Source: a virus. From it: a stretch of 64,000 nucleotides of DNA. The notes under the pieces are model-generated. The model worked only from the letters and a program-made list of their open reading frames with translations. It was not told the DNA's origin and searched no databases. The DNA is taken from positions 124,001 to 188,000 of IMG/VR virus record IMGVR_UViG_3300032116_014939. One strand, given 5' to 3'. Of this stretch, positions 16,874 to 52,877 are shown piece by piece. Position 1 is the stretch's first letter, and every line of letters begins with the position of its first letter. A program made the position numbers and the translations under genes.

Positions 16874-16916
16874 AGTTTTTGTTTATAAAATAGTTTAAAA
16901 TTATCTTTATGTAAAT

Positions 16917-16939
16917 AAAAAACCCACATTACTGTGGGT
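16917..16939 (-). terminator. Intrinsic terminator after tail tube gene
   Basis: 7-bp perfect stem (16922-16928 with 16933-16939), 4-nt loop, followed on the minus strand by a six-U run. It separates the tail tube transcript from the chaperone/tape measure genes. Confidence 0.8.
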
Positions 16940-16963
16940 CTTAATATAATATTTGTAATTGTA

Positions 16964-17452
16964 TTAGTAAAGTAAAACACAATAGTCAGGACGAAGAGTC
17001 AAAGTAATATCTGCCAAACCATCATCAGTATAGGCAATTGAACCAAAATCAACGTCAGTTAAGAAACATTGGATTAATGACCACTTTTCAATAACAACCC
17101 CTGTTGGGTCTAACATTTCAAGTTCCACATCTTTTTTGTAACCCGCAGCATATCCCATACGACCTGTTACTTCTTCAGCGTGTAATCTTACCCACTCCAT
17201 CATAGCCTGAGCAGCTGATGGCCCGATTGGGTCAAGAAGTTTAACCTGAATAGTATTCCACTCATACATACCCGCAACATATCTTTTGGTATTCAAAAAT
17301 GGAATATCATTTGATTTAATAGTAATTTTAGGTCGAGAAGCAGATTGAACAAACCACTCGTTTATTCCCAATGAATCAGGAAATCTCAAAATGAACCTGT
17401 TTTTCTTTTTGGGTTCATATGGAAAGGGCATTTTGGTTAACAAATCAGCCAT
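16964..17452 (-). CDS. 19: Tail tube protein (gp19-type)
   Basis: Forms the inner tube of the contractile tail. The 162 aa match T4 gp19 (163 aa). Recognisable features are FPYEPKKKNRFILRFP at the N-terminus, DIPFLNTKRYVAG, VKLLDPIGPSAAQAMMEWVR and the C-terminal ADITLTLRPDYCVL. These are the conserved beta-strands and helix of gp19-like tube subunits. It has its own terminator downstream and two late-type motifs upstream (17486-17493 and 17561-17568), fitting the need for many copies. Confidence 0.88.
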   Translation of the reverse strand: MADLLTKMPFPYEPKKKNRFILRFPDSLGINEWFVQSASRPKITIKSNDIPFLNTKRYVAGMYEWNTIQVKLLDPIGPSAAQAMMEWVRLHAEEVTGRMGYAAGYKKDVELEMLDPTGVVIEKWSLIQCFLTDVDFGSIAYTDDGLADITLTLRPDYCVLLY

Positions 17453-17485
17453 ATTATTTTGTTTTTAAATTTTCTTTTATTTTAT

Positions 17486-17493
17486 TATAAATA
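17486..17493 (-). promoter_or_regulatory. Candidate late motif TATTTATA, proximal to tail tube gene
   Basis: Sense-strand TATTTATA 33 nt before the ATG at 17452. It is one of two copies in the 116-nt gap upstream of the tail tube gene. Confidence 0.45.
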
Positions 17494-17560
17494 GTGTCAA
17501 TTAAATATTTTTCTATTTACTTTGAACTTTTTTTCAGTCAAACTTGCTATAAGTCCAGTT

Positions 17561-17568
17561 TATAAATA
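17561..17568 (-). promoter_or_regulatory. Candidate late motif TATTTATA, distal to tail tube gene
   Basis: Second copy in the tail tube upstream gap, directly after the stop codon of the HAD-fold gene. Confidence 0.35.
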
Positions 17569-18384
17569 TTAATATAATTTCTTTTCTCCTCCATGTGTTG
17601 ATATTGTTTGAATAATATTTTCCGGGTCTTTTGATAATTCATCTTTAACTTTTTCTAAATTTCTTAAATCATCATCTGAAAAACCTATTTTAGGTATGAA
17701 TCTATTACTAATATCATCTTTAAACATTACAGGTTTCTTTAATAGATTTGCTAAATATTTTACATATTGTTGAAATTCTCTTAAAGCTTCAACCTTTCCT
17801 TTTTCAGGACTTTGAGCAGAACCGGCTCCAAATGTTACAGGATAATACTTATTCATATCCATATAAGCATTTATAAGTTCTTTGTCTGTCATATCTTCTT
17901 CACCGGCAAACTTTCTAAACTTTCTTAAATTTTTAACCAATTCTTTTTTAGATATTCCTCTAAAATTAGTTTCAATCATATTTTCAATTGCCCTACGTAA
18001 AGCCAATGGTGAATGTCCTCTTGCTGTAACTATTGAAAAAATTGAACCCCCATTAATCGCCTCAACAAAGTCATCCCATGCTGGGCCTTCTTTCGCCATC
18101 ATTGCATCAATAATGAACCTCTTATCCCCTTTGGTTCCAAAATTTCTGAATGGGTCGTCAGCAAATCCTACAACAGTTTTCTTTTTATATTCAAAAGGTT
18201 CAACCCCAACCTTTACACGATATTCCGCAAAGTCTTCAGTTGACATACCAACTTCTTCACCATCTTCTGTACGAAGTATTATTTGTGTCGGCATTGTAAG
18301 AATATTATCATCCCAATCAAATGCATAATATTTTAAATCGGGTGTGATTTCTTCATTAAATTCTTCTACTAAAAATATTTTCAT
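17569..18384 (-). CDS. HAD-fold phosphatase-like protein in the tail operon
   Basis: A 271-aa protein with HAD superfamily motifs in order: motif I YAFDWDDNIL (about 19-28, Asp-x-Asp present), motif II SIVTARGH (Thr about 119), a Lys-bearing QSPEKGKVEAL segment, and motif IV-like GFSDDD near residue 234. All catalytic positions appear intact, so it is probably an active phosphohydrolase of unknown substrate. The first 12 residues (MKIFLVEEFNEE) contain L-V-E and resemble the N-terminal segments of several other proteins here. It sits between tail sheath and tail tube and has a late motif only 3 nt before its ATG, so a virion or assembly role is suspected. Confidence 0.65.
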   Translation of the reverse strand: MKIFLVEEFNEEITPDLKYYAFDWDDNILTMPTQIILRTEDGEEVGMSTEDFAEYRVKVGVEPFEYKKKTVVGFADDPFRNFGTKGDKRFIIDAMMAKEGPAWDDFVEAINGGSIFSIVTARGHSPLALRRAIENMIETNFRGISKKELVKNLRKFRKFAGEEDMTDKELINAYMDMNKYYPVTFGAGSAQSPEKGKVEALREFQQYVKYLANLLKKPVMFKDDISNRFIPKIGFSDDDLRNLEKVKDELSKDPENIIQTISTHGGEKKLY

Positions 18385-23534: not shown

Positions 23535-25295
23535 TTGACGACTTCTACGGGACATTTAAGTGTTGAGCAACAAGCAATATCCATTCTTGAAAATTATCAA
23601 GGCTCAAATAACTATATCCTTAAATTAAAGAAACAAATTGAGTCAAATAAAAAGTATGTCCCAACAAGAGCTCAATGTGATTATGTTATTGACTATAATT
23701 CAGTAGTTCCAAAAGTCGCTAAGAAATGGGTTGAGATTGACTCATACTTTTCACAAAAACTTGTTGCCGATAATCCATTCATTAAGGAACCTGATAAAAT
23801 TTACGTTGAAAAGATTTTAATTGAAAAAGATAAATCATATCATATTTGGGGTAAGATTTTTAGTGGTGAAACTATTCATGATTTTTGGATACCAAAAGCG
23901 GCGGTTATCAAACAATACACCGAAAACTTGGTTGACGTTGATTACTCAAAATACGAAAACCGTCCACCACTTACTCACCAAAAAGAAGCAATTGAAAAGT
24001 TATTAAAAAACGACAAGTTTATTTTAGCAGATGACATGGGACTTGGTAAAACAACAAGTACTGTTATTGCTTCGTTAGAAAGTGGAGCTAATAGAGTGTT
24101 AATTATTTGTCCAGCGTCTCTCAAAATAAATTGGGAAAGAGAAATCAAAAACTATACTGACAAATCAGTTTATATCTGTGAGGGTAAGAAGTTTGAACAA
24201 GCGGACTACGTTATTGTTAACTACGACATTCTTAAAAACTTCCATGACCCAAAAGATAAGTTAAACTCAATAATTCTTAATTCAAAGTTTGATTTAGTTG
24301 TTATAGATGAAGCACATTATGTTTCAAACGCTCAAGCTCAAAGAACAAAGATTATAATGGATGTAACCAAGAATATTAAAAAATTATGGTTACTAACGGG
24401 AACACCAATGACTTCTCGTCCAATGAATTATTACAATATCTTAAAACTTATTGATAGTCCTGTAAGTCAAAACTGGCAAGCATACGCAATTAGATATTGT
24501 GGTGGATATCAGTTTAGAGTTGGTGGTAAAAAGATTTGGAATGTTACAGGAGCGTCAAACTTGGAAGAGTTGAGAGAAAGGACTTCTCGTCAAATTTTAA
24601 GAAGATTAAAAACTGATGTTTTAGATTTACCTGAAAAAATTATGACTCCTGTTTACCTTCGTTTGAAATCAAGGTTATATGAAGGATTGATGGGTGAGTA
24701 TTATGATTGGTATAACAACAGACAAGACGAATCAAAGTCATTATCTGTTCAGTTTACAAAACTGATGAAAGTAAGACAAGTAATTGCCGAAGAAAAAATA
24801 CCAATTACAATTGAACTTGCTGAGAACATTATCGAACAAGGTAAAAAAGTTATTATCTTTAGTAACTTTACCGAACCACTTAAAAAGATACACGAACATT
24901 TTGGTAAAAAATCTGTTTATTTAGATGGGTCAACATCAAAACCTGCAAGACAAGATGCGGTTGACAAGTTCCAAGAGAGTGATAAAATACAAGTTTTTTG
25001 TGGTAATATGAAAGCCGCAGGTGTTGGATTAACACTTACTGCGGGTGAAGCTGTTATTATGAATGACCTATCATTTGTACCGGCAGAACATTCCCAAGCT
25101 GAAGACCGAGCATACAGATACGGACAAAAAAATTCAGTTTCAGTATATTACCCACTATTTGAAAATACAATTGAGGGTGTTATCTACGACATTCTGATAA
25201 AGAAGAAACAGATTATTGGTACGGTTATGGGTGATGTTGATGAAAATTCTGTAGATATTGTTGAACAAATACTTAACGAAATCAATAGTAAGTAA
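23535..25295 (+). CDS. SNF2/HARP-like helicase, UvsW functional analogue
   Basis: A superfamily 2 ATPase of 586 aa: Walker A DDMGLGKTT (about 166-174), DEAH box VIDEAH (257-261), motif III LTGTP (287-291), a C-terminal helicase lobe with IIFSNF and GVGLTLT, and motif VI QAEDRAYRYGQ (about 520-531). The RxxRxGQ form and MGLGKT are SNF2-family, closest in style to SMARCAL1/HARP annealing helicases rather than classical UvsW. The likely role is fork remodelling, branch migration or annealing in phage replication. The frame has no ATG before the ATPase core; TTG at 23535 is the only upstream start. It lies outside the late motif pattern, consistent with replication timing. Confidence 0.8.
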   Translation: MTTSTGHLSVEQQAISILENYQGSNNYILKLKKQIESNKKYVPTRAQCDYVIDYNSVVPKVAKKWVEIDSYFSQKLVADNPFIKEPDKIYVEKILIEKDKSYHIWGKIFSGETIHDFWIPKAAVIKQYTENLVDVDYSKYENRPPLTHQKEAIEKLLKNDKFILADDMGLGKTTSTVIASLESGANRVLIICPASLKINWEREIKNYTDKSVYICEGKKFEQADYVIVNYDILKNFHDPKDKLNSIILNSKFDLVVIDEAHYVSNAQAQRTKIIMDVTKNIKKLWLLTGTPMTSRPMNYYNILKLIDSPVSQNWQAYAIRYCGGYQFRVGGKKIWNVTGASNLEELRERTSRQILRRLKTDVLDLPEKIMTPVYLRLKSRLYEGLMGEYYDWYNNRQDESKSLSVQFTKLMKVRQVIAEEKIPITIELAENIIEQGKKVIIFSNFTEPLKKIHEHFGKKSVYLDGSTSKPARQDAVDKFQESDKIQVFCGNMKAAGVGLTLTAGEAVIMNDLSFVPAEHSQAEDRAYRYGQKNSVSVYYPLFENTIEGVIYDILIKKKQIIGTVMGDVDENSVDIVEQILNEINSK

Positions 25296-25296
25296 G

Positions 25297-25304
25297 TATT
25301 TATA
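25297..25304 (+). promoter_or_regulatory. Candidate late motif TATTTATA
   Basis: Ends 4 nt before the ATG at 25309, directly after the helicase stop, separating replication and late expression. Confidence 0.45.
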
Positions 25305-25308: not shown

Positions 25309-26814
25309 ATGAAATCGTTAAATTTAGTATCAGAGTCATTAGTTAGTCGTATATTAGGTGAGGAAACTCAACCTGAAACCAAATTCTTTATTAACGAAAT
25401 GAAAACCATAGGTATTGATAAATTACCTTACGGTTACGCATCATTAAGAAGATTTATTGACCCTGAAACAATGAAGTTTCATTATCAGAAACATTACAAA
25501 GGGTATGTTAAAAAATTAAATTCAGCTCTTCGTAAAAAAGATTATGGGGATGTTGAATTAGAAAACATTGTTAAACAAATTTCAAAGTATAATACAACAA
25601 TAAGAAACAACGCAGGTGGAGCATTTAATCACGCATTGTTTTGGAAGATGTTATCACCAACCCCACAAAAACCAAGTGGTGAAGTGTTTGAAAAGATTGT
25701 TAAACAATTTGGAACATATCGTAACTTCAAAACTAAATTTGAAGAAATCTCAAGAAAAAGATTTGGTTCAGGATGGTGTTGGTTAGTATTAACCGATACT
25801 GGTAGATTAAAAGTTATGTCGACTTCAAATCAGGATAATCCACTTATGAACATAATAAACAAGGGTGGTTTTCCGTTGTTAGGTTTAGATTTGTGGGAAC
25901 ACGCTTATTATTTAAAATACCAAAACAAAAGAGACGAATATATTGAAAATTTTTGGGACGTAATTAATTGGGAATTTGTTAACGAGTTATACAAATCAAA
26001 AACTGAAAAAAAATTGAACGAATCAATTTCACCAAAAAAACTTTTATACGAAAACGTATCTGATTATTCAGATATTTTTAGTAACAACAAAAATGTTCTT
26101 TGGACTTATAGAAGATGTATTGACAATACACTGAAAAGAGTTTTATCTGATAAATGGTATGAAAACAATCAACACTCTGAAGGTTCATCTTCAGGTATTT
26201 ACGATTTAGAAGCTCCTGGTCGTTCAGTAATTAATAAATTAAATACAAACTATATTGGGTTTAAAATTTTAGTTGATGATTTAAATGTGGTACTTACAAA
26301 ATTAAATAAACCCACATTAAATTTTATTGGGGTAACACCTTCACAACAAGTAGAAGAAATAAACAAATTTTGTGAGTATTTGGGTTTTTTTGGTGAAAGA
26401 ATTTTTAAAGGGTCTAAAACTCTTGATAAAATTATGAAACTTTTAAAAAGAACACATGACAAAGGTGGTCAACTTGAAGAGTATGTTGCAAAAAAAATCA
26501 ATCAAGAATTTGGTGAAGGAACTGCTACTGTAGTAGGTAGTTTAGGTTCAAAAGAAGATTTTGCAGGAACTGATTTAACAGTAAATTTTGATAACAAAAT
26601 ACAAAACGCTCAAGTAAAACCAATTTTAAGTATGGAAGTAATTGAAGGTTTCTATCATATCAAAATCAAAGGGTTTGTTAAAAAATTCAATACCGACTTG
26701 TTAATTTTCTCAAATCTTAATAAAGAAGTTTACATTTTTAAAAACAAAACTGTTGCTTTTAGTTCAAGTATGTTTAAAATTCCAACACAAGATTTAATTT
26801 ATACTCTGAATTGA
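25309..26814 (+). CDS. Mn-type superoxide dismutase fused to a PD-(D/E)xK nuclease-like domain
   Basis: 501 aa in three parts. Residues 1-25 (LVSESLVSRILGEE) form an amphipathic N-terminal segment with L-G-E. Residues about 30-230 are a complete Fe/Mn superoxide dismutase: ligands His58, His108, Asp194 and His198 (E. coli MnSOD His26, His81, Asp167, His171), second-shell His62 and Tyr66, and NNAGG plus STSNQD, the Gly/Gln pair of Mn enzymes. Residues about 240-501 are unrelated to SOD. There GGQLEEYVAKK, AGTDLTV (Asp422) and AQVKP (Lys437) follow the E...D...(E/Q)xK pattern of PD-(D/E)xK nucleases, with Gln at the usual Glu. A late motif precedes it and a neck protein follows, so it is probably a virion protein. 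The SOD call is firm; the nuclease call is tentative. Confidence 0.88.
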   Translation: MKSLNLVSESLVSRILGEETQPETKFFINEMKTIGIDKLPYGYASLRRFIDPETMKFHYQKHYKGYVKKLNSALRKKDYGDVELENIVKQISKYNTTIRNNAGGAFNHALFWKMLSPTPQKPSGEVFEKIVKQFGTYRNFKTKFEEISRKRFGSGWCWLVLTDTGRLKVMSTSNQDNPLMNIINKGGFPLLGLDLWEHAYYLKYQNKRDEYIENFWDVINWEFVNELYKSKTEKKLNESISPKKLLYENVSDYSDIFSNNKNVLWTYRRCIDNTLKRVLSDKWYENNQHSEGSSSGIYDLEAPGRSVINKLNTNYIGFKILVDDLNVVLTKLNKPTLNFIGVTPSQQVEEINKFCEYLGFFGERIFKGSKTLDKIMKLLKRTHDKGGQLEEYVAKKINQEFGEGTATVVGSLGSKEDFAGTDLTVNFDNKIQNAQVKPILSMEVIEGFYHIKIKGFVKKFNTDLLIFSNLNKEVYIFKNKTVAFSSSMFKIPTQDLIYTLN

Positions 26815-26837: not shown

Positions 26838-27968
26838 ATGAATACAATAATCGCAGAACCTTACAGAAGTCAACTATACACAAAAGTTAGACACGTATTA
26901 GGTGCACCAATTCGTTCAATTGAATTAGAAGATGAACAAATGGACTCAATCTTAGAATTTTCTATCGGAGATTATGCTCAGTATGTACAAGATTGGTTAA
27001 TTGAATCACAATGGACATCATTAAATAATCTAAATTTAGACACACAATCTTTATCAAGAGCTTTTGTAACAAAAAGTTTGGATTTTGAAAATAGATATGC
27101 TCAGGCTTATTCCAAAATAGTTGGGTTACAATCATCACCTCTTGGGGATTGGGTTCTTAAAAAAGATTATATCACATTAGTTCCAAATCAACAAATTTAT
27201 GAAATTCCAGCAGGTCGTGAAATTAATGAATTATTATGGTTTACACCAACCGCTCTTAATAATGTATTATTTGACCCATGGAGTTTTGGTGCGTTAGGTG
27301 GATATGGTATGGCAGGGCCAGCAGGTTATTCTCAAATGGGTTATACTGGTTCATACTTTATGATGCCAGCGTTTGATATGTTGTTAAGATTACAAGAAAT
27401 TAATATTCAAAGAAGAATTATTGCAGGTGATTTAACTTATAGAATAACAGGTTTACCTAATGGTAAAAAGGCAATTCATTTGATGCAAACACCTGGTGGT
27501 AAATTTGACTTCGGTAACTCATCATTAAGAAATTCACAAGTTTGGTATTGGTATTATGATGTTGGCCCTGAGGATAGAGACGCTTGTTTGGCCGCAAATC
27601 CTGATATTATTAAACTACCTTCAGATGTACCTATGAACTCAATTGCATGGGCGGATTTAAATGAACCGGCACAACAATGGGTTAGAAGATATTTTGTAGC
27701 AGGATGTAAAGAAACATTAGCCAAAGTAAGAGGAAAATACTCAGGAAACTTAAAAACACCTGATTCTGAATTAACAATGGATTACGCTTCATTGGCAACT
27801 GAGGGTAAAGATGAAAAAACAAAACTTATTGAAGAATTAATTGGTGCCGACGGTAGATTGACAAGATTACGTCCTGAAAAAATAATGGAACGAGAAGCAT
27901 TAATTGCTGAAAATCTAAACAAACAAATGAAGTTTAGAGCGTTCCCAAGAAATATGTATGTTATTTAA
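26838..27968 (+). CDS. Neck/head completion protein (gp13-like)
   Basis: A 376-aa protein with an N-terminal YTKVRHVLGAPIRSIELEDE module (LGaP...iEL.DEQ..., about 14-36), as in gp13 neck proteins of T4-like marine phages. A Gly/Met/Tyr-rich surface loop (about residues 150-180, GALGGYGMAGPAGYSQM) is followed by a C-terminal helical region. In T4, gp13 and gp14 seal the packaged head before tail joining. The gp14/gp15-like genes lie 3 kb away on the other strand, so the neck module is split by the helicase and SOD genes. Confidence 0.6.
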   Translation: MNTIIAEPYRSQLYTKVRHVLGAPIRSIELEDEQMDSILEFSIGDYAQYVQDWLIESQWTSLNNLNLDTQSLSRAFVTKSLDFENRYAQAYSKIVGLQSSPLGDWVLKKDYITLVPNQQIYEIPAGREINELLWFTPTALNNVLFDPWSFGALGGYGMAGPAGYSQMGYTGSYFMMPAFDMLLRLQEINIQRRIIAGDLTYRITGLPNGKKAIHLMQTPGGKFDFGNSSLRNSQVWYWYYDVGPEDRDACLAANPDIIKLPSDVPMNSIAWADLNEPAQQWVRRYFVAGCKETLAKVRGKYSGNLKTPDSELTMDYASLATEGKDEKTKLIEELIGADGRLTRLRPEKIMEREALIAENLNKQMKFRAFPRNMYVI

Positions 27969-28307: not shown

Positions 28308-31099
28308 ACCATTTCTTCCCATCCTTCTTCCGCTAATTCATAAATGTATTCAGGGTCAATTCCTCGTTTACCCCAATACACCATTTCTTGGTCTGTAATA
28401 GTTAACAAATCTTCAATACTATCTTGGTCGGCAGGTTCAAAAGGAACACCATTAATTAGTTTACATTGTTCTTTGGTAAATAAAGCTCTGTCTTTAGGGT
28501 CGGTAACAATTAGATTATTTCTAACTTCTTCATTAAACACAATTAACAAAGGTTCAATTCTTTTATTAAATGTAACAATCGCTCTAGCTACGTTATATTC
28601 ACCTGTCATATCAGGATTTGATTCCAATTCAGATGGGTCAAGACGATAACAATTAAGTTTTACATACGATTCAACCATTTCACGAGGTATTTTACCATAT
28701 CCTTCCATCATATTATCCAAATCAGATTGTGACCATCCTTTTTTAGGTTTATTAACCTTTTGAACGTCACCATGTGATGCTTTCACACCATTGTTCACAT
28801 AGAATATCACATCACCTAAACTAACCGCAATTCCATCTCTCATTGCCAATTCCATATGAGCCATACGAGACATTTCATTACCGGCCTTGGTCTTTTCCTT
28901 TGAACGTTTGTTATAATCATCAATTGATAATTTAACTTTCGCTCTTTGGGCAATCTTCATTAAAGGAATTTGTTGGTTAAAGATTACTTCTAAATATTCA
29001 TAATACCACTCAACAAATGCTTGTCCATTACCTTCTAACAACATCTTAATTCCTTTATCCAAAAAGTCCTCAATGTAAAGTGGTAATTTCTTACTCTTGA
29101 TTGAGTTACCTGTGAGTTTAATCTTACCATTATGTTCCATTGTTGCGTAGTTCTTACGAGCAATGTTCATACAGGATTTCCAAGTTCCATCACAATCAAG
29201 TCCCATAGCCCCTTTCATAAACATATCGTTAAACTCGGCAACATCAGCGTCGTAACCTGTGTATTCTTTACCTTCTTTAACTAACCAATTTTTACCCTTA
29301 CCGATGTATCTTCTATCATCAACACCACCTTCAGGTAACGAGAAATTCATACCATCCGTATCACATACAAGTGGGGTATATCCTCGTTTCATAAAGAAAC
29401 GTAACATCTGACGAAGGTATTGTCGTCCTGTACAGGTAATCTGTTCACCCATATACATGTCACCCCAGTGATATACTTGTGGAGCGGATAACGCTCCGAA
29501 CATTGAGTTGATGAAAATCTTAATTGGTAATTGTTTTCTGTCGTAAGATGTTGCTTGTTTTTTATCAATATCCTGATATTCTTTCGCCAAGTTTTTATAC
29601 TTGATACGAGTATTACGGAAGTAATTTAACATTCCTTTCATTGCTCCTGTAATATCACAAGTTGGGAATACATCGTGAACAAGTTGTATTGACGGATAAA
29701 GTGATGAGAAGTCAAGTTTCAATACATCTGTTGAATAACCTACTTTAAGTAGTCGTGATAAACCACCAACAAATTCTGTCTTTTCATTCTTAGCAGGAAT
29801 AGCCAACATGTGTTTATAAGACCATGCTCTCATTTGGATTTCCCATAATGTTGCAGTTCCCATTGTAGAAACCCTTTCATATGTTGTTGGAACCAAAGAT
29901 GCAAGTAAGAATGAACCCTGATTGAATTCTTCATCAACCGTTAAAGTTTCCTCCAAGTCATCGTCAAGATATCGTTCAACCAAATCATCACCTGTTGTTT
30001 TGATATATATGTTTGAATGTTTAGAACACGCTTCGTCAATCTTTGGGTCAACCCCCACTTTTTTATATTTTCCGTTTTGAATGTTTAACCAAAACTCTTC
30101 TTTCTTTGCATAAAATGGACCAATATCTGTGTGGTCAATATAAACACGGTCAGGTGCTTCAGCCTTAATGTATTGGGTAATATATTTCAAACCCGCAGAT
30201 TTGATAGATGAGTTGATTGCCTGAGCTCTTCTAACTGCGTGTAACGTATCAACAACGTTATAACCCCACATAGATGTCTGATTAAATCTCTCAACCTCAT
30301 TTGCAAGTTTTAATAAACTTTCAGATTGTTTAATTGGATTGATTGGATTAAGAGTTTTGGCAACTTTCTTAATATCCAACTTTAAAGCTTTGGCTCTTTC
30401 AAATAACCAAAACCAGTCAAAGTTAAATCCGTTATAAGACGCGATGATACTTGGTTTAAGTTCATCTATGGTATTAAAAAATTTAATAATACCTTCTCTT
30501 TCTTGTTCTTCAGTTGAACACTCAATTACCTGACTAAAACCTTTATTGGTTTTCATTCCTATCATGAATATACGACCATCCTTTGGTTCTAATGCGGTCG
30601 TCTCTAAGTCAAATACAAACCTCGTAATACTGTTGTAATCGTCAAATCCCTTGAATAATCGTTTTTCTTTTGTAACCAAGAATTGTTCAACAGGTGGTAA
30701 TATTAATACTAAACCTTTTGTTGTTTCACCCCATGGGTCAACACCACCATCTCTAAAAAATTGGATGAGAGAACGATATCCGTTTAAGGATTTAACCATA
30801 AAGGTTAAACCTTTTTCTAATCTTTCGTTACCATCAGTTCTTAATTTTTCAATGACAATTTTATGTTTTGTCATTGCCTCTTTTTGTAATGCTTTTGAGG
30901 ATTTATAAAAATTTAACCCACGTAAATCACCTACCCAAGCAAATGGGATGAAGGTATCTTTTTTAATTTGTTTTCCGTGAATTGGGTGTTCGATAATTTT
31001 CCAAACACAATCTTTGACGTAATCGTATTCGACACTGACGATATATTTTTCGTCATCATTTCCCTGAAGGAAATTTTCAATTTCTTCGTTTGATATCAT
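28304..31099 (-). CDS. 43: Family B DNA polymerase (gp43-type)
   Basis: Replicative polymerase of 931 aa with proofreading. Exonuclease motifs are FDLETT (163-168), SYNGFNFD (221-228) and YLDDD (377-381). Polymerase motif A is DFSSLYPS (463-470), motif B KIFINSMFGAL (527-537) and motif C CDTDG (579-583), a variant of YxDTD with Cys. The size is close to T4 gp43 (898 aa) and it is complete. It lies alone on the minus strand, convergent with the neck-gene transcript, and has no late motif upstream, as expected for an early/middle gene. Confidence 0.95.
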   Translation of the reverse strand: MISNEEIENFLQGNDDEKYIVSVEYDYVKDCVWKIIEHPIHGKQIKKDTFIPFAWVGDLRGLNFYKSSKALQKEAMTKHKIVIEKLRTDGNERLEKGLTFMVKSLNGYRSLIQFFRDGGVDPWGETTKGLVLILPPVEQFLVTKEKRLFKGFDDYNSITRFVFDLETTALEPKDGRIFMIGMKTNKGFSQVIECSTEEQEREGIIKFFNTIDELKPSIIASYNGFNFDWFWLFERAKALKLDIKKVAKTLNPINPIKQSESLLKLANEVERFNQTSMWGYNVVDTLHAVRRAQAINSSIKSAGLKYITQYIKAEAPDRVYIDHTDIGPFYAKKEEFWLNIQNGKYKKVGVDPKIDEACSKHSNIYIKTTGDDLVERYLDDDLEETLTVDEEFNQGSFLLASLVPTTYERVSTMGTATLWEIQMRAWSYKHMLAIPAKNEKTEFVGGLSRLLKVGYSTDVLKLDFSSLYPSIQLVHDVFPTCDITGAMKGMLNYFRNTRIKYKNLAKEYQDIDKKQATSYDRKQLPIKIFINSMFGALSAPQVYHWGDMYMGEQITCTGRQYLRQMLRFFMKRGYTPLVCDTDGMNFSLPEGGVDDRRYIGKGKNWLVKEGKEYTGYDADVAEFNDMFMKGAMGLDCDGTWKSCMNIARKNYATMEHNGKIKLTGNSIKSKKLPLYIEDFLDKGIKMLLEGNGQAFVEWYYEYLEVIFNQQIPLMKIAQRAKVKLSIDDYNKRSKEKTKAGNEMSRMAHMELAMRDGIAVSLGDVIFYVNNGVKASHGDVQKVNKPKKGWSQSDLDNMMEGYGKIPREMVESYVKLNCYRLDPSELESNPDMTGEYNVARAIVTFNKRIEPLLIVFNEEVRNNLIVTDPKDRALFTKEQCKLINGVPFEPADQDSIEDLLTITDQEMVYWGKRGIDPEYIYELAEEGWEEMV

Positions 31100-36792: not shown

Positions 36793-38007
36793 ATGAAAGA
36801 AAAAATTAAAGTTTTAGTTATCCCTTCTGACACTACAGGTGTTGGAAGATTTAGGTCAATCACTCCTCATACTCATTTACAATCAAAATACGGTGAAGAT
36901 TTTCATGTTGATATTGAATTCAACCCTGATTTGACTAATATAAATTATTTTAAGGATTATCAAATAATTCACTATCACCGTTCTCTTGGTCAAGATATGG
37001 ATAAGTCAGTACAAATAGTACCGATTCTTAATTCTTTGGGCATTATTACTATCTGTGATTTAGATGATTACTGGTTACCTGGCAAAGAACATCCTCTTCA
37101 TCAGTTGATTGTACAAGAAAAAATACATGAAAAAATTATTGCAAATTTAAAAGTTGCTCAATATGTAACTACAACAACTGAGTTATTTGCGGATGAAATA
37201 CGTAAATACAATAAAAATGTTGTAATTTTTCCAAATGCAATTGACCAAAATGAAGCTCAATTTAAAGAACCTACTGAAGAATCTGATTTAGTTAGAATTG
37301 GTTGGTTAGGTGGTTCATCTCACTTACATGATTTAAAACTTCTTGACGGTATGGTTTCAAAACTATCAGACATACAAAAAAATCTTCAATTTGTTGTTTG
37401 TGGTTTTGACACACGTGGTATGATGACAGAAATTAATCAGGCAACTGGAGAACAAACAAGAAGACCAATTAAACCACACGAAACTGTATGGTATGATTAC
37501 GAAAAGATTTTTACAAACAATTACTCAATTGTTACACCTGAATATAAAAAACATTTAGAACTTTTTGTTCAAACACCTTACGAAAATGAACAAAACCAAC
37601 CATACAGAAGAGTTTGGACAAAACCTGTTACATCTTATGCTCGTAATTATTCAAAATTTGACATATCTTTGGCACCAATTAAACAACATATGTTTAACAA
37701 AGTAAAATCACAACTTAAAGTTATTGAAGCAGGTTTTTATAAAAAAGCATTAATCGCCAGTAACTATGGGCCATATACTATTGATTTAAAACACGCAATG
37801 AAAAATGGTGAATTTACTGATGGTAACGCTCTTTTAGTTGATGACGCAAGAAATCATAGTGATTGGGCTAAATATGTTAAAAAATTGGTTCAAAACCCAA
37901 ATATGAGAATTGACATGGGTGAAAGATTATATGAATATGTTTCACAAAGATATAGTTTAGATGTAGTAACAAAAACAAGAGCAGAATTTTATAAATCAAT
38001 CGTATGA
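36793..38007 (+). CDS. GT-B glycosyltransferase (GT4-like)
   Basis: A 404-aa two-lobed glycosyltransferase. The N-terminal lobe starts IKVLVIPSDTTGVGRFR. The C-terminal lobe holds VRIGWLGGSSHLHDL (about 166-180) and a donor-site segment QLKVIEAGFYKKALIAS (about 312-328, Glu and Gly as in the GT4 E..x..G motif). It shares ATGATAA overlap with the exonuclease gene downstream. It is the first gene after the terminator and likely begins the island transcript. Donor and acceptor are unknown. Confidence 0.75.
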   Translation: MKEKIKVLVIPSDTTGVGRFRSITPHTHLQSKYGEDFHVDIEFNPDLTNINYFKDYQIIHYHRSLGQDMDKSVQIVPILNSLGIITICDLDDYWLPGKEHPLHQLIVQEKIHEKIIANLKVAQYVTTTTELFADEIRKYNKNVVIFPNAIDQNEAQFKEPTEESDLVRIGWLGGSSHLHDLKLLDGMVSKLSDIQKNLQFVVCGFDTRGMMTEINQATGEQTRRPIKPHETVWYDYEKIFTNNYSIVTPEYKKHLELFVQTPYENEQNQPYRRVWTKPVTSYARNYSKFDISLAPIKQHMFNKVKSQLKVIEAGFYKKALIASNYGPYTIDLKHAMKNGEFTDGNALLVDDARNHSDWAKYVKKLVQNPNMRIDMGERLYEYVSQRYSLDVVTKTRAEFYKSIV

Positions 38008-38702
38008 TAAAACACCCATTACACAAAATTTTATTTATTGACATTGAAACTGTCGGGGTTTCAAGTAACTATGAAAATTTTAAAAAGGATTATCCTGAAC
38101 TTCATTTCCAATTTATCAATTATTTAGATTGGTTTCAAAAAAGGTTTCCTGAAGACGCTGAAAAAAGTATTGATGAAATTTTTGTTAATCGTGCGGCTTT
38201 AGTTCCTGAGTTCTCAAAGATTGTTTGTGTTTCAGTAGGATTTCTTGACCCAAAGGGTGACATTAAAAAACAAAGTTTTTTTAACTCAGATGAAAAAGTA
38301 TTACTTACAGATGTAAACACATTGTTAAATCGAGTTGATAAGTTAGGTTTTATCCTTTGTGGACATAATCTTAAAAACTTTGATATTCCTGTATTGGCAA
38401 AAAGAATGTTAGTTAATGGTATTTTACCATCATCTATCCTTCCATCTTACGATACTAAACCTTGGGAGATTAAAGCAATTGATACAAAAGAAATTTGGCA
38501 ATATGGACAATTTGGAGCAATAAGTTCATTAGAACTAATGTGTGTATCTCTTGGTGTTGAGACTTCTAAAAATATGGAAGTCACGGGAAATAAAGTTCAC
38601 AACGCATTTTGGAATAAAAACAAATACCAAGAAATCCAAGATTATTGTGAGAAAGATGTTGAAGTACTAATTAAAGTTTTAATAAAATTAACAAATTTAT
38701 GA
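38004..38702 (+). CDS. DEDDy 3'-5' exonuclease (PolB-exonuclease-like)
   Basis: A stand-alone proofreading-type exonuclease of 232 aa. Motif I is LFIDIETVG (about 9-17), motif II GHNLKNFDIPV (about 113-123), motif III YCEKDVE (Tyr-x3-Asp, about 214-220). The arrangement fits predicted exonucleases related to the PolB exonuclease domain. The polymerase in this window has an intact exonuclease of its own, so this enzyme probably works in repair, RNA/DNA trimming or nucleotide recycling. It overlaps both neighbours by 4 nt, linking it with dUTPase. Confidence 0.8.
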   Translation: MIKHPLHKILFIDIETVGVSSNYENFKKDYPELHFQFINYLDWFQKRFPEDAEKSIDEIFVNRAALVPEFSKIVCVSVGFLDPKGDIKKQSFFNSDEKVLLTDVNTLLNRVDKLGFILCGHNLKNFDIPVLAKRMLVNGILPSSILPSYDTKPWEIKAIDTKEIWQYGQFGAISSLELMCVSLGVETSKNMEVTGNKVHNAFWNKNKYQEIQDYCEKDVEVLIKVLIKLTNL

Positions 38703-39283
38703 GTGAAAAATTTAATTTTGCAAGAGAATTAGAAGAATTAAAAAAATTGGTTGATGACTTTAGTCAATTACAGGAACAAGAATTAAATGATGAATTAGGG
38801 TTCGATATTAAGGAATTTGAGGATGCAAATCAATTTATTGGGGATGGAAAAATTACAATAAATTTTGTTTCAACGAATGAAAAAGAATTGAATTACGCGT
38901 ACGAATCAGACAGTGGATTTGATTTATACGCAAATGAAGAAGTTAAAATACCTGCATTTGGTAGGGCTTTAGTTCCAACAGGTGTTTCAGTTGATTTACC
39001 CCAAGACTTTGAGATACAAGTTAGGTCAAAGAGCGGTTTAGCCATCAATCAAGGGTTAATGGTTTTAAACTCCCCAGGAACTGTAGATGAAGGTTATACT
39101 GGTGAAATTAAAGCCATTATTTTTAATACAAACAACCATGAATTTGTGATAACAAAAGGTATGAAAGTCGCTCAAGCGGTAGTTGCAAGATGTATTACAG
39201 GTAGATGGGTTAATTTGAAAAAAGTAGATAAAATAGAAGAAAAAGATAGAGGTAGTAAAGGTTTTGGGAGTACAGGGATATGA
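38699..39283 (+). CDS. dut: dUTPase with N-terminal extension
   Basis: Hydrolyses dUTP to dUMP and pyrophosphate, keeping uracil out of DNA. All five motifs of trimeric dUTPases are present: SDSGFDL, RSKSGLA, GTVDEGYTGEI, GMKVAQAVV and the C-terminal RGSKGFGSTG arm. The catalytic core starts near residue 48. The first 45 residues (Glu/Leu-rich, LEELKKLVDDFSQLQEQE) are an extra helical extension not needed for the core, perhaps for partner binding. It overlaps the exonuclease and the next glycosyltransferase by 4 nt each. Confidence 0.93.
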   Translation: MSEKFNFARELEELKKLVDDFSQLQEQELNDELGFDIKEFEDANQFIGDGKITINFVSTNEKELNYAYESDSGFDLYANEEVKIPAFGRALVPTGVSVDLPQDFEIQVRSKSGLAINQGLMVLNSPGTVDEGYTGEIKAIIFNTNNHEFVITKGMKVAQAVVARCITGRWVNLKKVDKIEEKDRGSKGFGSTGI

Positions 39284-40785
39284 TAACAATAATATACTCA
39301 ACACATAAAGACGAAAATTATAATAAAAAATTTAAACAACATTTATTAGAAAGTGTTGATTTGAAAAATGTTCAAATATTAGAATACCAAAACAATAATC
39401 AATATTCGTTGGCTCAAATTTATAATAGTGGAATAACAGAATCAAATTATGATATTGTTGTTTGTTGTCATAATGATATTAAATTAGAAAAAGGATGGGG
39501 TAAAAAATTATTAAGAGATTTTGAAGAAAATCTTGATTTTGGTATTTTAGGTAAGGCTGGTTCATGTTATTTTCCTAAATCAGGTGTTTATTGGGAAAAT
39601 ATGCACAATACAATGGTCGGTCATGTGTATCACCAACCTGAAGGTCAACCAAAGTGGATTAGTAAATACTCGGCCAAATTACCTAAACCAATACCAGTTG
39701 TCACATTAGACGGATTATTTTTATCGTTTAATAAAAATAAAATAAAACACACATTTGATGAAACTATTGGTAAATTTCATTTTTATGACCACCCGTTTTG
39801 TTTGAGTAATTTTTTGGATGGTGTTAAATTAGGGGTAACTTTTTCATTCGATATTACACACCAATCTGTTGGTCAACCAAACCATGAATTTTATAATAGT
39901 AAAATTACATTTTTAGAAAAATACGGACAATTTTTGCCTATTGTAATTTATCCCGAAATTTATATCCCAAGAATACAAAGAAAACCAATAAAAATTGATG
40001 GTAAAGTTGCAATTATTATCCCACATAAAGATAATTTTTCTTTATTAAAAAAATGTATTTTATCTTATTTTGATAATTGTGATGAAACTATTTTTGATAT
40101 TTTTGTTGCGGATACGGGTTCTTCTAAACTTGAAAAAAAAGCTATTAAAAATTTTATATTTAATTATTCAAATATAAAGTTGATTGAATATGATTATTAT
40201 AATTTTGCAAAAATTAATAATGATGTAGTTAAAAATCATTTATTTAACGAACATACGTACATTTTATTTAGTAACAATGATATTGAACTTTTAAATGATG
40301 TGATTTATGGTATGTTAAAAATACATAAGACTATTCCCGCAGTTGGTACTGTTGGTTGTAGATTACATTTTAAAAATAAATTAATCCAACATGATGGAGT
40401 AATCATTGTAAGTGATAAAGAAAATAAAATTCAAATGCACCATAGTGGTATTAATTCTCATTATAACTTTCAAAATCAAATAAAAAAAGTACCAATCACT
40501 ACAGGTGCTCTTATGATGGTATATAGAAAGGTTTTTGAAAAATTAAATTATTTTAATGAATCATATACTGAATGTTTTGAAGATGTTGAATTTAATTTAA
40601 AATGTTTGATAAATGGATATACTAATTATTTAGATGGTAATTTAGTATCATATCACTATGAAAGTCAAACAAGAAATTTAAATTATGATAAAAATGAAAG
40701 AGTGATTGAAGATTATAAAAAAACATTATCGCCTTTTATTTCAAACAATTTTAATAAATTACAAAAATTTATATTATCAATCTAA
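39280..40785 (+). CDS. Tandem GT-A (GT2-like) glycosyltransferase
   Basis: 501 aa with two GT-A domains. Domain one (1-225) has ITIIYSTHKDE, VVCCHNDIKLEKGW (Asn-Asp-Ile at the DxD position) and FHFYDHPFCL. Domain two (about 235-490) has VAIIIPHKDNFSLLKKC, ILFSNNDIELLND and the acceptor-site TECFEDVEFNLKC. Two active domains would allow two successive sugar additions by one protein. Sugar and acceptor unknown. Confidence 0.75.
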   Translation: MITIIYSTHKDENYNKKFKQHLLESVDLKNVQILEYQNNNQYSLAQIYNSGITESNYDIVVCCHNDIKLEKGWGKKLLRDFEENLDFGILGKAGSCYFPKSGVYWENMHNTMVGHVYHQPEGQPKWISKYSAKLPKPIPVVTLDGLFLSFNKNKIKHTFDETIGKFHFYDHPFCLSNFLDGVKLGVTFSFDITHQSVGQPNHEFYNSKITFLEKYGQFLPIVIYPEIYIPRIQRKPIKIDGKVAIIIPHKDNFSLLKKCILSYFDNCDETIFDIFVADTGSSKLEKKAIKNFIFNYSNIKLIEYDYYNFAKINNDVVKNHLFNEHTYILFSNNDIELLNDVIYGMLKIHKTIPAVGTVGCRLHFKNKLIQHDGVIIVSDKENKIQMHHSGINSHYNFQNQIKKVPITTGALMMVYRKVFEKLNYFNESYTECFEDVEFNLKCLINGYTNYLDGNLVSYHYESQTRNLNYDKNERVIEDYKKTLSPFISNNFNKLQKFILSI

Positions 40786-41672
40786 TGGAAGAGAAAAAAT
40801 TAAAAATTTTATTTGGGTGTCTTTTATACCGAGACTTCACAGGTTCTGAAATGTATGTATTTGAACTTTGTAAAAATTTAGTTAAAAACGGACATGATGT
40901 TAGTGTAGTTTCACCTTCAATAGAAGGTCCAATAAGATACCTATCAGAATCATTAGGAATTAAAGTTTACGATTTCAACAATGCCCCTGTTCATGAAAAT
41001 TTTGATATAATACACGGACAACATTATCCTGTTGTTGAAATTTTGGTACACGCATTCCCAAACACACCAATAATTACAACAATTCATTCTGAAGTTATTG
41101 AATTAGAAAATCCAGTAATTTCTCCAAATATTAAAAAATACATCTGTATAAGACCTGAAATTAAACAACATATTATTAATAATTTTAAAATTGATATTAA
41201 TTCAACTACAATTATTTATAACCCAATAGATGAATCAAGATTTAATCAAAACAATACTGAAAATTCTAACTCAGTACTTTTTGTCGGTACTATAGATTAT
41301 TTACGTAAAAATTCAATTTTTGATATTTCAGATTATTGTGAAAAAAACAATAAAGAACTTTGGTTAGTTGGTAAAAACCACTCAAATTATTTGAATGAAC
41401 TAACAACTAAACCACATGTTAAATACTTTAGTGAAACAAGTTCTGTTGAGGAGTTCACAAAAAAATGTGGTGAAACTGCGGGTATATTATTGGGTAGAAC
41501 AACTATTGAAGGATGGATGTGTGGCAAAAAGGGTTGGATTTATAATATCAATAGTAATGGGAATATTATTGATAAAAAATTACACGATGTCCCTGAAAAT
41601 ATTGGTCAATTTGAATCGTCAAATGTTTGTAAAGAAATAACAAACGAATATATTAAAATATTAAATCAATGA
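40785..41672 (+). CDS. GT-B glycosyltransferase (GT4-like, short)
   Basis: 295 aa, shorter than usual GT4 enzymes (350-400). The N-terminal lobe has FTGSEMYVFELCKNLVKNGH (Gly-Ser-Glu plus Gly-His typical of GT4). The second lobe has SVLFVGTIDYLRKN and GRTTIEGWMCGKKGWIYN with the conserved Glu. The usual second Glu region is condensed. It overlaps the upstream and WecB-like genes by 1-4 nt. Confidence 0.72.
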   Translation: MEEKKLKILFGCLLYRDFTGSEMYVFELCKNLVKNGHDVSVVSPSIEGPIRYLSESLGIKVYDFNNAPVHENFDIIHGQHYPVVEILVHAFPNTPIITTIHSEVIELENPVISPNIKKYICIRPEIKQHIINNFKIDINSTTIIYNPIDESRFNQNNTENSNSVLFVGTIDYLRKNSIFDISDYCEKNNKELWLVGKNHSNYLNELTTKPHVKYFSETSSVEEFTKKCGETAGILLGRTTIEGWMCGKKGWIYNINSNGNIIDKKLHDVPENIGQFESSNVCKEITNEYIKILNQ

Positions 41673-42727
41673 AAAAAACAATCATAACTATCACCGGTAT
41701 TAGACCCGATTTTATAAGAATGTCTGAAATTTTTAAAAAATTAGATAACAATTTTAATCATATATTAATACACACAGGACAACATTATGATAAAATGTTA
41801 TCTGATGTATTTTTTGATGAGTTATCAATACGTAAACCTGATTTTAATTTAGAAATCGGCTCAAAGGGAAAAGAACATTTTCACCAACAGGCAGATTTAT
41901 CTGTCAAAATAATTGACTTAATCCGTAATGAAAATATAAATCCTGATTTAATAATTTTTTTAGGTGATTCAAATTCGGCTTTAGCATCGGTACCTCTTAA
42001 AAAAGAGGGGTATAAAATTGCCCACATTGAGGCAGGTATGAGGTCGGGTGATAAAAGAATGCTTGAAGAAATTAATAGAATTGTTTGTGACCATTGTAGT
42101 GACCTTTTGTTTGTTTATCATGATAATTACAAAGAAAAATTGATTAGAGAATCAATTAATCCAAAATCAATTTATGTTGTAGGAAATACAATTAAAGAGG
42201 TTGCAAATAAAATAGAATTAAATAAATCTAAAAAAAATAATAAAATAATTTTAGATATTCATAGACCTGAAAATTTTAATAGTAAGGAACGTTTAAAAAA
42301 CATATTAAACTATGCTAATATTTGTTCCCAAAGATTTGGGATACCTGTTGAAATGTTATCATTTAAAAGAACTATTGATAAAATATCCGAATTTAATTTA
42401 GATTTAGAAAATATTAAAGTAATTGATTTATTATCTTTTAAAAATTATATAAATGAAATGTACCATTCTAAGTTTATAATTTCAGATTCAGGTACAGCTC
42501 AAGAAGAACCTTGTTTATTTAATACTCCAGTTATTGTCCCAAGAGATTTTACTGAAAGACCTGAATCGGTTGAATCTGGATGTTCATATATGATTAATGT
42601 AAACGAATTAGATGTTTCGTGGATTGAGTCATTTAATTATCTATCAAATTATAACTCAAACACAGATTGGTTAGGAGATGGTAAAACATCCGACAAAATT
42701 ATTGAAATATTAAAAGAAAAATTATGA
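41669..42727 (+). CDS. wecB: UDP-N-acetylglucosamine 2-epimerase (non-hydrolysing)
   Basis: Interconverts UDP-GlcNAc and UDP-ManNAc (or a 6-deoxy counterpart). 352 aa, normal length. Signature segments are ITGIRPDFIRM at the N-terminus, HTGQHYD (about 36-42), AHIEAGMRSGDKRMLEE, LDIHRPENF, SDSGTAQEEP and ERPESVESG, all typical of the WecB family. It supplies an activated amino sugar to the surrounding glycosyltransferases. Overlaps both neighbours by 4 nt. Confidence 0.9.
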   Translation: MKKTIITITGIRPDFIRMSEIFKKLDNNFNHILIHTGQHYDKMLSDVFFDELSIRKPDFNLEIGSKGKEHFHQQADLSVKIIDLIRNENINPDLIIFLGDSNSALASVPLKKEGYKIAHIEAGMRSGDKRMLEEINRIVCDHCSDLLFVYHDNYKEKLIRESINPKSIYVVGNTIKEVANKIELNKSKKNNKIILDIHRPENFNSKERLKNILNYANICSQRFGIPVEMLSFKRTIDKISEFNLDLENIKVIDLLSFKNYINEMYHSKFIISDSGTAQEEPCLFNTPVIVPRDFTERPESVESGCSYMINVNELDVSWIESFNYLSNYNSNTDWLGDGKTSDKIIEILKEKL

Positions 42728-43533
42728 TTTCCATTGTTACTGCGTATCACAATCGAAAAAAAATATTTATTAAAACATTAGAAAGTTTTAAAAAAAGTAG
42801 TTTTACTGATTTTGAAGTTATCGCTGTCGATGACTGTAGTCACGAAGATGAAAGATTAGAAGATTTGGTAGACGAATTTCCTTTTTTAAAAATTGTTAGA
42901 TTAGAAAAAAAAGATAAATGGTATGTAAATCCATGTGTTCCTTTTAACGTCGGATTTAACCACGCATCAGGTGATAAAATTATTATACAAAATCCTGAAT
43001 GTTTACATTCAGATGATATTTTAAATTTTGTAAACGAAAATTTAATTGATAATGATTATTTATCATTTGCTTGTTATTCTTTAAGTGAAATTCAAACATC
43101 GGCAGTGTTACAACTTAATGATTTTAAATCATTTATTAACCCCTCAACATATAAAAAAATATCAGTAGTTAATGATGGTGATGAAGGATGGTATAATCAT
43201 TCATTATATCGACCAAAATCTTATCATTTTTGTACCGCAATAACTAAAAAAGATTTAAAAGAATTAGGAGGATTTGACGAAAGATTTGCAACTGGAGTAG
43301 CGTTTGATGATGATGAATTTATACATAGAATTCGTCTTAAATTAAATGTAAGGTTTATTGATGATTTTGTTGCTCTTCATTTATGGCATTACGGAAATGA
43401 TAAAAATGCAACAGTAACAAATAGAGTAAATATGGATAATAAATTTTGGGAAATGTGGAATAAAAATAATTACTTATTCAATTATGTGACTAAAATTGAA
43501 AATAAATACACAATTAATAATTTAATTAAATGA
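42724..43533 (+). CDS. GT2-like glycosyltransferase
   Basis: 269 aa, single GT-A domain: MISIVTAYHNRKKIFIKTLE, nucleotide-binding VIAVDDCSHEDE, CVPFNVGFNHASGDKI and acceptor-site LGGFDERFATGVAFDDDEF. All expected GT2 regions are present; the metal-binding motif is degenerate (QNPECLHSDD). Soluble, no membrane segment. Overlaps both neighbours by 4 nt. Confidence 0.78.
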   Translation: MISIVTAYHNRKKIFIKTLESFKKSSFTDFEVIAVDDCSHEDERLEDLVDEFPFLKIVRLEKKDKWYVNPCVPFNVGFNHASGDKIIIQNPECLHSDDILNFVNENLIDNDYLSFACYSLSEIQTSAVLQLNDFKSFINPSTYKKISVVNDGDEGWYNHSLYRPKSYHFCTAITKKDLKELGGFDERFATGVAFDDDEFIHRIRLKLNVRFIDDFVALHLWHYGNDKNATVTNRVNMDNKFWEMWNKNNYLFNYVTKIENKYTINNLIK

Positions 43534-44324
43534 AAATAGTAGGATTTACACAATTAAGAAATGAATTATCAAAAGGAAATTTACATAATTGGTTAAAACA
43601 AATGTTTGAAATATGTGAATACGTTTATGTATACGACCAAAATTCTGATGATGGTAGTAAAGAAATTTATAAAAATTTTTCTAATTTACGAGTAATTGAG
43701 TCAGAAATAAATGATTTTAAAAATGAAATATCGTGTAAGAAAAAATTGTTAGATACTCTACTACTTGAGCAACCTGACACTGAATTTATTATATGGTTAG
43801 ATGGTGATTCACTTTTAGATAGTCGTTTAACTAATGATAACAATAAAATTTTAATTGATATTTGTAACTACGCTAAAAACAATAATATTGACGGTATATT
43901 GTTGGGTCATTACAATCTATGGAGAAGTGACATCCACTATAGAATAGATAACGCTTATCATAGTTTAAGTCATGGGGTTTGTGCAATATGGAGAAATAAT
44001 AAAAATTTAAATTTTCAGTCAATTCACGGGTTACACCAACCTCAATATCCAAATGGAATTGTAACAACCATTAAAATACCTTATAGTATAATACATAGAG
44101 GTTTTGCGACTGACTATCAAATTATTACTAAATATAATGTTTATAAAAGTTATGGCCAAGACGGATGGGCACTTGAGAGATTATTAGACGAAACTACGTT
44201 AGAAGTTGTTGAATTAGATACTAATATATTACCTTCATGGTTTAAAATTACTGACGCAACTAATCCAAAAGAAAAAGAAAAAATAATTAATATTTTTAAA
44301 AAACAAAATGAAGAAATCAATTGA
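43530..44324 (+). CDS. GT-A glycosyltransferase-like protein
   Basis: 264 aa. The N-terminus MKIVGFTQLRNE..., VYVYDQNSDDGSKEI and the metal site IIWLDGDSLLD (Asp-Gly-Asp, about 88-98) indicate a GT-A fold of the kind with a long C-terminal acceptor region (HGLHQPQYPNG, IIHRGFATDY). It overlaps the following gene by 17 nt. Substrate unknown. Confidence 0.68.
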   Translation: MKIVGFTQLRNELSKGNLHNWLKQMFEICEYVYVYDQNSDDGSKEIYKNFSNLRVIESEINDFKNEISCKKKLLDTLLLEQPDTEFIIWLDGDSLLDSRLTNDNNKILIDICNYAKNNNIDGILLGHYNLWRSDIHYRIDNAYHSLSHGVCAIWRNNKNLNFQSIHGLHQPQYPNGIVTTIKIPYSIIHRGFATDYQIITKYNVYKSYGQDGWALERLLDETTLEVVELDTNILPSWFKITDATNPKEKEKIINIFKKQNEEIN

Positions 44325-45033
44325 AATTATTTCATTAATTTTTAAATCAGTAGAATACTTAGATTTAATACATAAAGAATTAACTAGTGAAAAATGTAAA
44401 GTTAATGGTTGGGATGTCTCAATAAGAATTGTCGCAAATGATGCAACAGATGAGATTATAAATAAATTAACAAAATTAGATATACCATATTCAATTTATA
44501 ATGACCCAATTCCTAATGATTATTATTTAAATAGAGTTTATAGATGTTGGAATTACGCCGGTAAAACTAGTAAATCAGATAATATTTGTTTTGTTAATTC
44601 AGATATGGTCTTTAGTAATGGATGGTTAGAAAATTTATTAAAACATCACGATGGTACTAATATACCAACATCTAGATTAGTTGAGAGTGGTAAAATGAGG
44701 AGTGGAACTTATGGTATTAGTATTGATTGTGGTAAAAGTCCTAAAAAAATTGATTATGAACTTTGGGAAAAAGTTAATACATCTATGAGGGAGGATAACA
44801 TTTATTCAGGTGGTTTATACATGCCATGTATTTTTGAAAAAACTCGATTTATTGAAAGTGGTATGTATCCTGAAGGTAACATTTATACTGATGGAGTTGG
44901 TACTTTAAATGGGTTTGTTCAAAGTGGAGATGACTGGTATTTTAGAAAATTAGAATCAACTTATGGGATGAGACATGTTACAGTATTTGATTCATTAGTT
45001 TATCATATACAAGAAGGTGAAAAAGACGATTAA
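44308..45033 (+). CDS. GT2-like glycosyltransferase
   Basis: 241 aa with a compact GT-A layout: IEIISLIFKSVEYLDLIH, VNSDMVFSNGWLENLL (Ser-Asp-Met at the DxD site) and a C-terminal FVQSGDDWYFRKLES acceptor motif. It begins inside the previous gene and ends 24 nt before the cupin gene, one of the few non-overlapping junctions here. Confidence 0.68.
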   Translation: MKKSIEIISLIFKSVEYLDLIHKELTSEKCKVNGWDVSIRIVANDATDEIINKLTKLDIPYSIYNDPIPNDYYLNRVYRCWNYAGKTSKSDNICFVNSDMVFSNGWLENLLKHHDGTNIPTSRLVESGKMRSGTYGISIDCGKSPKKIDYELWEKVNTSMREDNIYSGGLYMPCIFEKTRFIESGMYPEGNIYTDGVGTLNGFVQSGDDWYFRKLESTYGMRHVTVFDSLVYHIQEGEKDD

Positions 45034-45057
45034 AATATTAAAGATATACAAAATAAA

Positions 45058-45468
45058 ATGGAAAAAATATATTCTAAAATTAATGGAGAACTCCTTCATC
45101 AAATTGTGAGATTATCTGATGTTACTTCTGAACGAACTGATTTAAGCTTAGATAAAAACTACCTTCAATGTGCCAGTTTAAAATTATCTAAAGGACATAC
45201 ATTTAAACCTCACAAACATAATATAATCCCAAGACATGATGAAAATTACATACCTCAGGAAAGTTGGTGTGTTATAAAAGGAAAGGTAAAATGTATTTTC
45301 TATGACATTGATGATAATATAATTGCGGAACCTATATTATCCGCAGGTGATATTAGTTTTACATTTAATGGTGGTCATAATTATTTGATTTTAGAAGACG
45401 ATACTATTGTATATGAATACAAAACAGGGCCATATTTTGGTCAAACAATTGATAAAACTTTTATTTGA
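45058..45468 (+). CDS. Cupin-fold protein
   Basis: 136 aa, single cupin barrel. Motif 1 is GHTFKPHKHNIIP with two metal-binding His, then QESWCVIKGKVKCIFYD and motif 2 FTFNGGHNYLILEDD. In sugar gene clusters such proteins act as isomerases/epimerases of nucleotide sugars or as small binding proteins. Its stop overlaps the start of the acyltransferase gene (TGATG), which suggests the two work in one pathway. It lacks the conserved features that would name it FdtA/QdtA. Confidence 0.65.
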   Translation: MEKIYSKINGELLHQIVRLSDVTSERTDLSLDKNYLQCASLKLSKGHTFKPHKHNIIPRHDENYIPQESWCVIKGKVKCIFYDIDDNIIAEPILSAGDISFTFNGGHNYLILEDDTIVYEYKTGPYFGQTIDKTFI

Positions 45469-45992: not shown

Positions 45993-45996
45993 TCTT

Positions 45997-46605: not shown

Positions 46606-46614
46606 AAATAAAAT

Positions 46615-47586: not shown

Positions 47587-47594
47587 AACATACT

Positions 47595-48518: not shown

Positions 48519-48525
48519 TACATAT

Positions 48526-49350: not shown

Positions 49351-49382
49351 GATGAATAAAAACAACACTTAATGTTTACTGT

Positions 49383-49949: not shown

Positions 49950-49972
49950 TAAAAAAATAAATTAAAATTACC

Positions 49973-50626: not shown

Positions 50627-50648
50627 AATAAATAAATTATATAAAATA

Positions 50649-52874: not shown

Positions 52875-52877
52875 ATA

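Follow-up and report, generated by a model that had tools for sequence, protein, structure and literature searches.

A fusion of superoxide dismutase to a putative nuclease in giant T4-like freshwater phages, with predicted prohead protease sites

Gene Context of the Fusion

The window analyzed here comprises 64,000 nucleotides, positions 124,001–188,000 of a 242,064-base IMG/VR virus record (IMGVR_UViG_3300032116_014939, called G000). ORFs and motifs were analyzed over the whole ∼242-kb phage contig, which holds 241 ORFs. On the plus strand, window positions 25309–26814 form an uninterrupted frame for a superoxide dismutase (SOD)–nuclease polyprotein of 501 amino acids. An earlier note, made from this DNA alone, had placed an SOD and a C-terminal nuclease-like domain in one frame, and the frame is indeed open for 501 codons. 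The chain probably consists, in this order, of a leader, an MnSOD domain, a flexible linker, and a PD-(D/E)xK nuclease. The phages carrying the fusion are giant T4-like freshwater phages; among annotated phages, those nearest in portal and neck have Microcystis and Flavobacterium as hosts.

The gene is flanked on the same strand by an SNF2-type helicase gene (positions 23535–25295, start codon uncertain; Pfam and PHROG matches) and by a neck or head–tail adaptor gene (positions 26838–27968; phrog_211, E = 2.3e-8), the latter in agreement with the neck gene claimed earlier. Among distinct loci with enough flank, the helicase gene directly adjoins the fusion gene in 72 of 74 and the neck gene does so in 72 of 76. 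The lineages of L081, L036, and L071 have about 1.2 kb more between the fusion and neck genes; the extra stretch of L081 contains a 381-amino acid ORF (L081:2183–3328) with the leader-like start MKFIINE.

A late-promoter-like motif, TATTTATA, occupies positions 25297–25304 (plus strand) and ends 4 nt before the ATG of the fusion gene. The late motif had already been noted, and the late placement of the gene is upheld. Of the 241 ORFs, 37 have the motif in the 45 nt before their start, whereas random positions would give 1.3. The ORFs preceded by it include those for terminase, tail tube, neck, and the fusion itself, as well as many leader-bearing ORFs. Copies lie at window positions 25297 and 26815 and at 35 other starts across G000, mostly 3–6 or 10–17 nt upstream; if the copies at 3–6 nt were promoters, their transcripts would have almost no leader.

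The same genome encodes a portal, a terminase, a gp23-type capsid protein, and a head maturation (prohead) protease (phrog_207, E = 3e-44). The major capsid proteins of eight related contigs have (F/H)LINE|A around residue 60, a T4-like position, and it is likely at LINE|A that the major capsid protein of this phage group is cleaved. Together with the protease gene, this sequence indicates that both signal and enzyme are present.

At least 15 ORFs of G000 share an N-terminal leader (e.g. MKK(I/V)(I/V)RLTESDL..(I/V)IK+V(I/V)KE or MKxIITE..), beyond which their sequences are unrelated. They lie mostly at 214–242 kb of G000 (loci L090 and L091), and also at window positions 62668–63186, and probably represent an extensive group of internal proteins targeted to the capsid. 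Two DNA methyltransferases, of the N6_N4_Mtase and D12 classes, are encoded at G000 positions 16899–17756 and 29533–30372 (L082 and L083); conservation of the first one extends to 7 of 10 related contigs. Judged from ORF starts only, the genes in a long run at window positions 36793–56330 resemble those for glycosyltransferases, sugar-nucleotide enzymes, and methyltransferases, suggesting that the surface or the DNA is modified with sugars.

Superoxide Dismutase Domain

Residues 36–230 (positions 25414–25998, plus strand) form an SOD domain of the Mn type. Both Pfam models, Sod_Fe_N (E = 1.9e-23) and Sod_Fe_C (E = 7.3e-42), match above their curated cut-offs, and the best PDB matches are MnSODs (E = 4e-60, about 45–47% identity). 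SODs were also the only matches returned by Foldseek for the full-length protein. The four metal ligands (His58, His108, Asp194, and His198) and the Mn-type pair Gly104/Gln175, all recognized in the earlier note, are invariant in 96 of 96 near-complete distinct fused homologues. The same is true of the second-shell and interface residues H62, Y66, N107, W156, D176, W196, E197, and Y201.

Comparison of one pair of sequences gave pN/pS values of 0.04 (SOD), 0.27 (nuclease), and 0.53 (linker); judged by these ratios, the strongest purifying selection falls on the SOD half, where it is present. The invariant active site and the low pN/pS lead us to reject a degenerate structural fold, and they lend no support to the earlier suggestion that an SOD fold was recruited as a virion component. 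The SOD half is predicted to dismutate superoxide.

C-terminal Nuclease-like Domain

Residues 256–501 (positions 26074–26811, plus strand) make up the nuclease-like domain. Structure prediction of this half, proposed earlier as a check, gave a confident AlphaFold2 model (pLDDT 90.6, pTM 0.82; built from 28 divergent members). Its leading PDB fold match in Foldseek is I-Ssp6803I (E = 4e-3, probability 1.00), followed by many Hjc resolvase entries and then RecU, so that nearly all leading matches are PD-(D/E)xK enzymes. The match is moderate, with a best PDB E-value of 4e-3 and a TM-score of about 0.4 to the target. The predicted active site (E390, D417, D422, and Q435-x-K437; positions 26476–26619, plus strand) is invariant wherever the column is present, including the 96 near-complete fused homologues, with members down to about 34% identity. 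Within it, E390, D422, and Q435xK437 match the E...D...(D/E/Q)xK motif of the PD-(D/E)xK superfamily.

I-Ssp6803I, Hjc, and RecU share the predicted core fold and the E-D-(E/Q)xK residues with the C-terminal domain, whereas the phage domain possesses an additional ∼130-residue helical part at its N terminus and has no detected sequence similarity to them. Sequence and profile searches against Pfam, PHROG, and the PDB returned nothing convincing, and no convincing sequence-profile match to Hjc or another named PD-(D/E)xK family was found. The modeled resemblance is therefore at the superfamily level only. Relatives of the domain were found neither in the annotated phage genomes searched, nor in the nearest annotated phages (Mel-JY01, immuto, and LR756508), nor, by one narrow pattern, in bacterial and archaeal genome contigs. 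A full-length structural match (TM 0.82, 20% identity) is provided by A0A8D9CCA0, a 1113-residue protein of an uncultured marine phage; a broader alignment aimed at this protein returned only closer relatives. The PD-(D/E)xK-like pattern first noted from the sequence is thus borne out by the invariant residues and the predicted fold, but not by any match to a sequence family. A comparable D...QxK site is found in DREN, an active PD-(D/E)xK nuclease with the catalytic residues D41, Q60, and K62 that has been likened to I-Ssp6803I (PMC12205087). On the strength of the model, the C-terminal domain likely has a nuclease fold, and nuclease activity is probable.

Two other roles were considered for this domain. 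It might be a non-catalytic DNA-binding or structural head protein that only resembles PD-(D/E)xK enzymes, as its position among head and tail genes and a pN/pS laxer than that of the SOD would allow. Since none of the five putative catalytic residues varies, even among members only about 34% identical, this is highly unlikely. Alternatively, the domain could be a late-phase Holliday-junction resolvase or packaging nuclease with the SOD as a passenger, in keeping with the Hjc and RecU fold matches, the late-type motif, and the neck-gene neighborhood. We consider this quite unlikely, as the Hjc Pfam model found no match in the phage genome and a capsid-targeting leader would be needless for such an enzyme.

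Leader, Linker, and Predicted Cleavage Sites

The capsid-targeting-like leader (residues 1–30; positions 25309–25398, plus strand) ends at a predicted prohead protease site, FINE30|M. The disordered linker (residues 231–255; positions 25999–26073, plus strand) contains two more predicted sites, LNE238|S and LYE248|N. Conservation was scored on 33 representatives that are <90% identical. Glu30 (site 1; positions 25396–25398) is found in 33 of 33, with Ile, Leu, or Val at −2. Glu238 (site 2; positions 26020–26022) is 94% conserved with Ile or Leu at −2 in 82%, and Glu248 (site 3; positions 26050–26052) is 97% conserved with Ile or Leu at −2 in 94%. When Val and Met are also counted at −2, the values for sites 1, 2, and 3 are 100, 88, and 97%. 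These three glutamates are the only residues conserved above 90% in leader residues 3–31 and linker residues 228–256; leader positions 3–29 reach 79% at most. In a structure model that spans the linker, pLDDT drops below 50 at residues 234–249, as in disordered segments. The sole linker of the 33 without Glu248 is that of L184, and Val replaces Ile or Leu at a few sites.

The 33 linkers contain 64 (I/L)xE sites versus 17 in shuffled sequences (maximum 29 over 1000 shuffles) and the leaders 91 versus 43 (maximum 60), comparisons that overstate significance because the shuffles preserve composition but ignore the relatedness of the sequences. T4 gp21 cuts after L/I-X-E, and the propeptide of T4 gp23 is 65 residues long (PMC9026906). 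In the alignment, the conserved glutamates of leader and linker each stand in an (I/L/V)xE motif, as recognized by T4-type prohead proteases. The shortness of the gp21-type motif counts against this assignment; Met at P1′, as at site 1, is less usual than Ala, Gly, or Ser.

The capsid-targeting-like start described earlier is upheld by a leader that ends in (I/L/V)xE with an invariant Glu30. The “bifunctional enzyme” of the earlier note is probably not the mature form, since the linker has two conserved predicted cut sites. SOD and nuclease are accordingly predicted to be separated in the head.

Recurrence of the Fusion and Loss of SOD

In one viral-contig scan, the best 80 of 596 candidate relatives were kept, and nearly all of these 80 carry the full SOD–nuclease frame. 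Over all IMG/VR contig scans, the search for the same fusion in related phages yielded at least 100 distinct fused proteins at one locus, originating from independent metagenomes. In one contig (L196, identical with L210 and L264) the two halves lie in different frames, which could point to chance joining of ORFs or an assembly artefact, but close relatives of L196 are fused. An assembly join is ruled out by the ∼100 distinct fusions from independent metagenomes, and the probability left to this explanation as a whole is next to negligible.

The trees of the two halves are broadly congruent, with a correlation of pairwise distances of 0.81. Among the matches listed, 17 distinct proteins without SOD keep leader and nuclease, and 16 of the 17 retain (I/L/V)xE before the nuclease. 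On a midpoint-rooted tree of the C-terminal domain, the SOD-less proteins form three separate groups inside SOD-bearing lineages, and parsimony gives three changes for SOD presence or absence. By this tree, the SOD was cleanly lost three times, whereas leader, predicted cut site, and nuclease stayed. L157 looks like an in-frame removal of the SOD that left both predicted sites in place. No SOD was found elsewhere in six SOD-less contigs (including those of 318 and 309 kb), records that may be incomplete, with SOD-bearing controls positive. The comparison thus marks the SOD as the dispensable part of the polyprotein.

The losses also bear on a different reading, in which the fusion stays uncut as a late-made, cytoplasmic bifunctional enzyme whose SOD additionally pairs two nuclease domains as a dimerization module. 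Bacterial MnSODs are dimeric, and Hjc-type nucleases also work as dimers. The invariant SOD interface residues E197 and Y201, the retention of the fusion in ∼100 distinct proteins, and the congruence of the two trees would all fit such an enzyme. On the other hand, the nuclease persists through three SOD losses, which argues that the SOD is not needed for dimerization, and conserved glutamates in a fast-evolving disordered linker suit a cut site better than a tether. We therefore regard an uncut enzyme as unlikely.

Proposed Maturation and Role

Our preferred reading is that of a capsid-targeted polyprotein that is cleaved in the prohead to SOD and nuclease and probably injected, to which we assign a probability of about 0.6. 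The late-made polyprotein would be carried into the prohead core by its leader, as T4 internal proteins are by their capsid-targeting sequences. By the same rule as for the major capsid protein, the gp21-type prohead protease of the phage would then release the leader with a cut after Glu30 and part SOD from nuclease by cutting after Glu238, Glu248, or both. The mature head would hold free SOD and free nuclease, and both enzymes would probably enter the host along with the DNA. There, the nuclease may act against DNA of the host or of competitors, or it may process the DNA that comes in. The SOD may remove superoxide within the host or from the surroundings of the genome in the head. Speculatively, the conserved DNA methyltransferases of the phage could shield its own DNA from the nuclease. 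Against this account stands the fact that a nuclease inside a DNA-filled head would need to be held inactive. The more specific proposal, that the maturation protease frees two different injected enzymes so that the virion brings an SOD into the host with its genome, stands at even odds.

The polyprotein resembles the internal head proteins of T4 (IPI–IPIII and Alt) in its short N-terminal leader ending in (L/I)xE, its late-type expression, and the presence of a gp21-type protease and a gp23-type capsid protein in the same genome. It differs from the T4 proteins in its predicted cargo, an SOD and a nuclease in one chain with further predicted sites between them. Chlorovirus PBCV-1 packages a late SOD (A245R) and restriction endonucleases that are believed to enter with the genome (PMC7019647), so that packaging in virions has a precedent for both halves. 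In contrast to the phage fusion, the PBCV-1 SOD is of the Cu/Zn type, the genes are separate, and the virus infects eukaryotes. The T4 internal proteins and the chlorovirus enzymes provide precedents for the individual parts but none for their combination.

Stand-alone phage SODs (the Pseudomonas Callisto/PA5oct group and Vibrio phage 2.275.O) share the Fe/Mn SOD fold and likewise come from jumbo phages, but are short, unfused single-domain ORFs among non-structural genes. The fusion itself is represented in UniProt by A0A6J5L953, “superoxide dismutase [uncultured Caudovirales phage]”, which has the same 501-residue length and a C-terminal domain 92% identical to that described here; its name covers the SOD only, not the nuclease, leader, or sites. 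SODs of freshwater phages have been described as genes for defense against ROS (PMC6802176). A limited literature search, with subscription journals mostly outside its reach, found no description of the fusion, its leader, or its sites. What the alignments add as new is the conserved set of (I/L/V)xE sites in the unstructured leader and linker.

The usual view takes phage SODs for auxiliary metabolic genes that are expressed during infection. If packaged, the SOD would act at entry or protect the virion, a role other than auxiliary metabolism. The three natural SOD losses provide matched pairs in which the purpose of the SOD can be addressed, and the (I/L/V)xE rule may allow genes for injected head proteins of uncultured jumbo phages to be read from their sequences.
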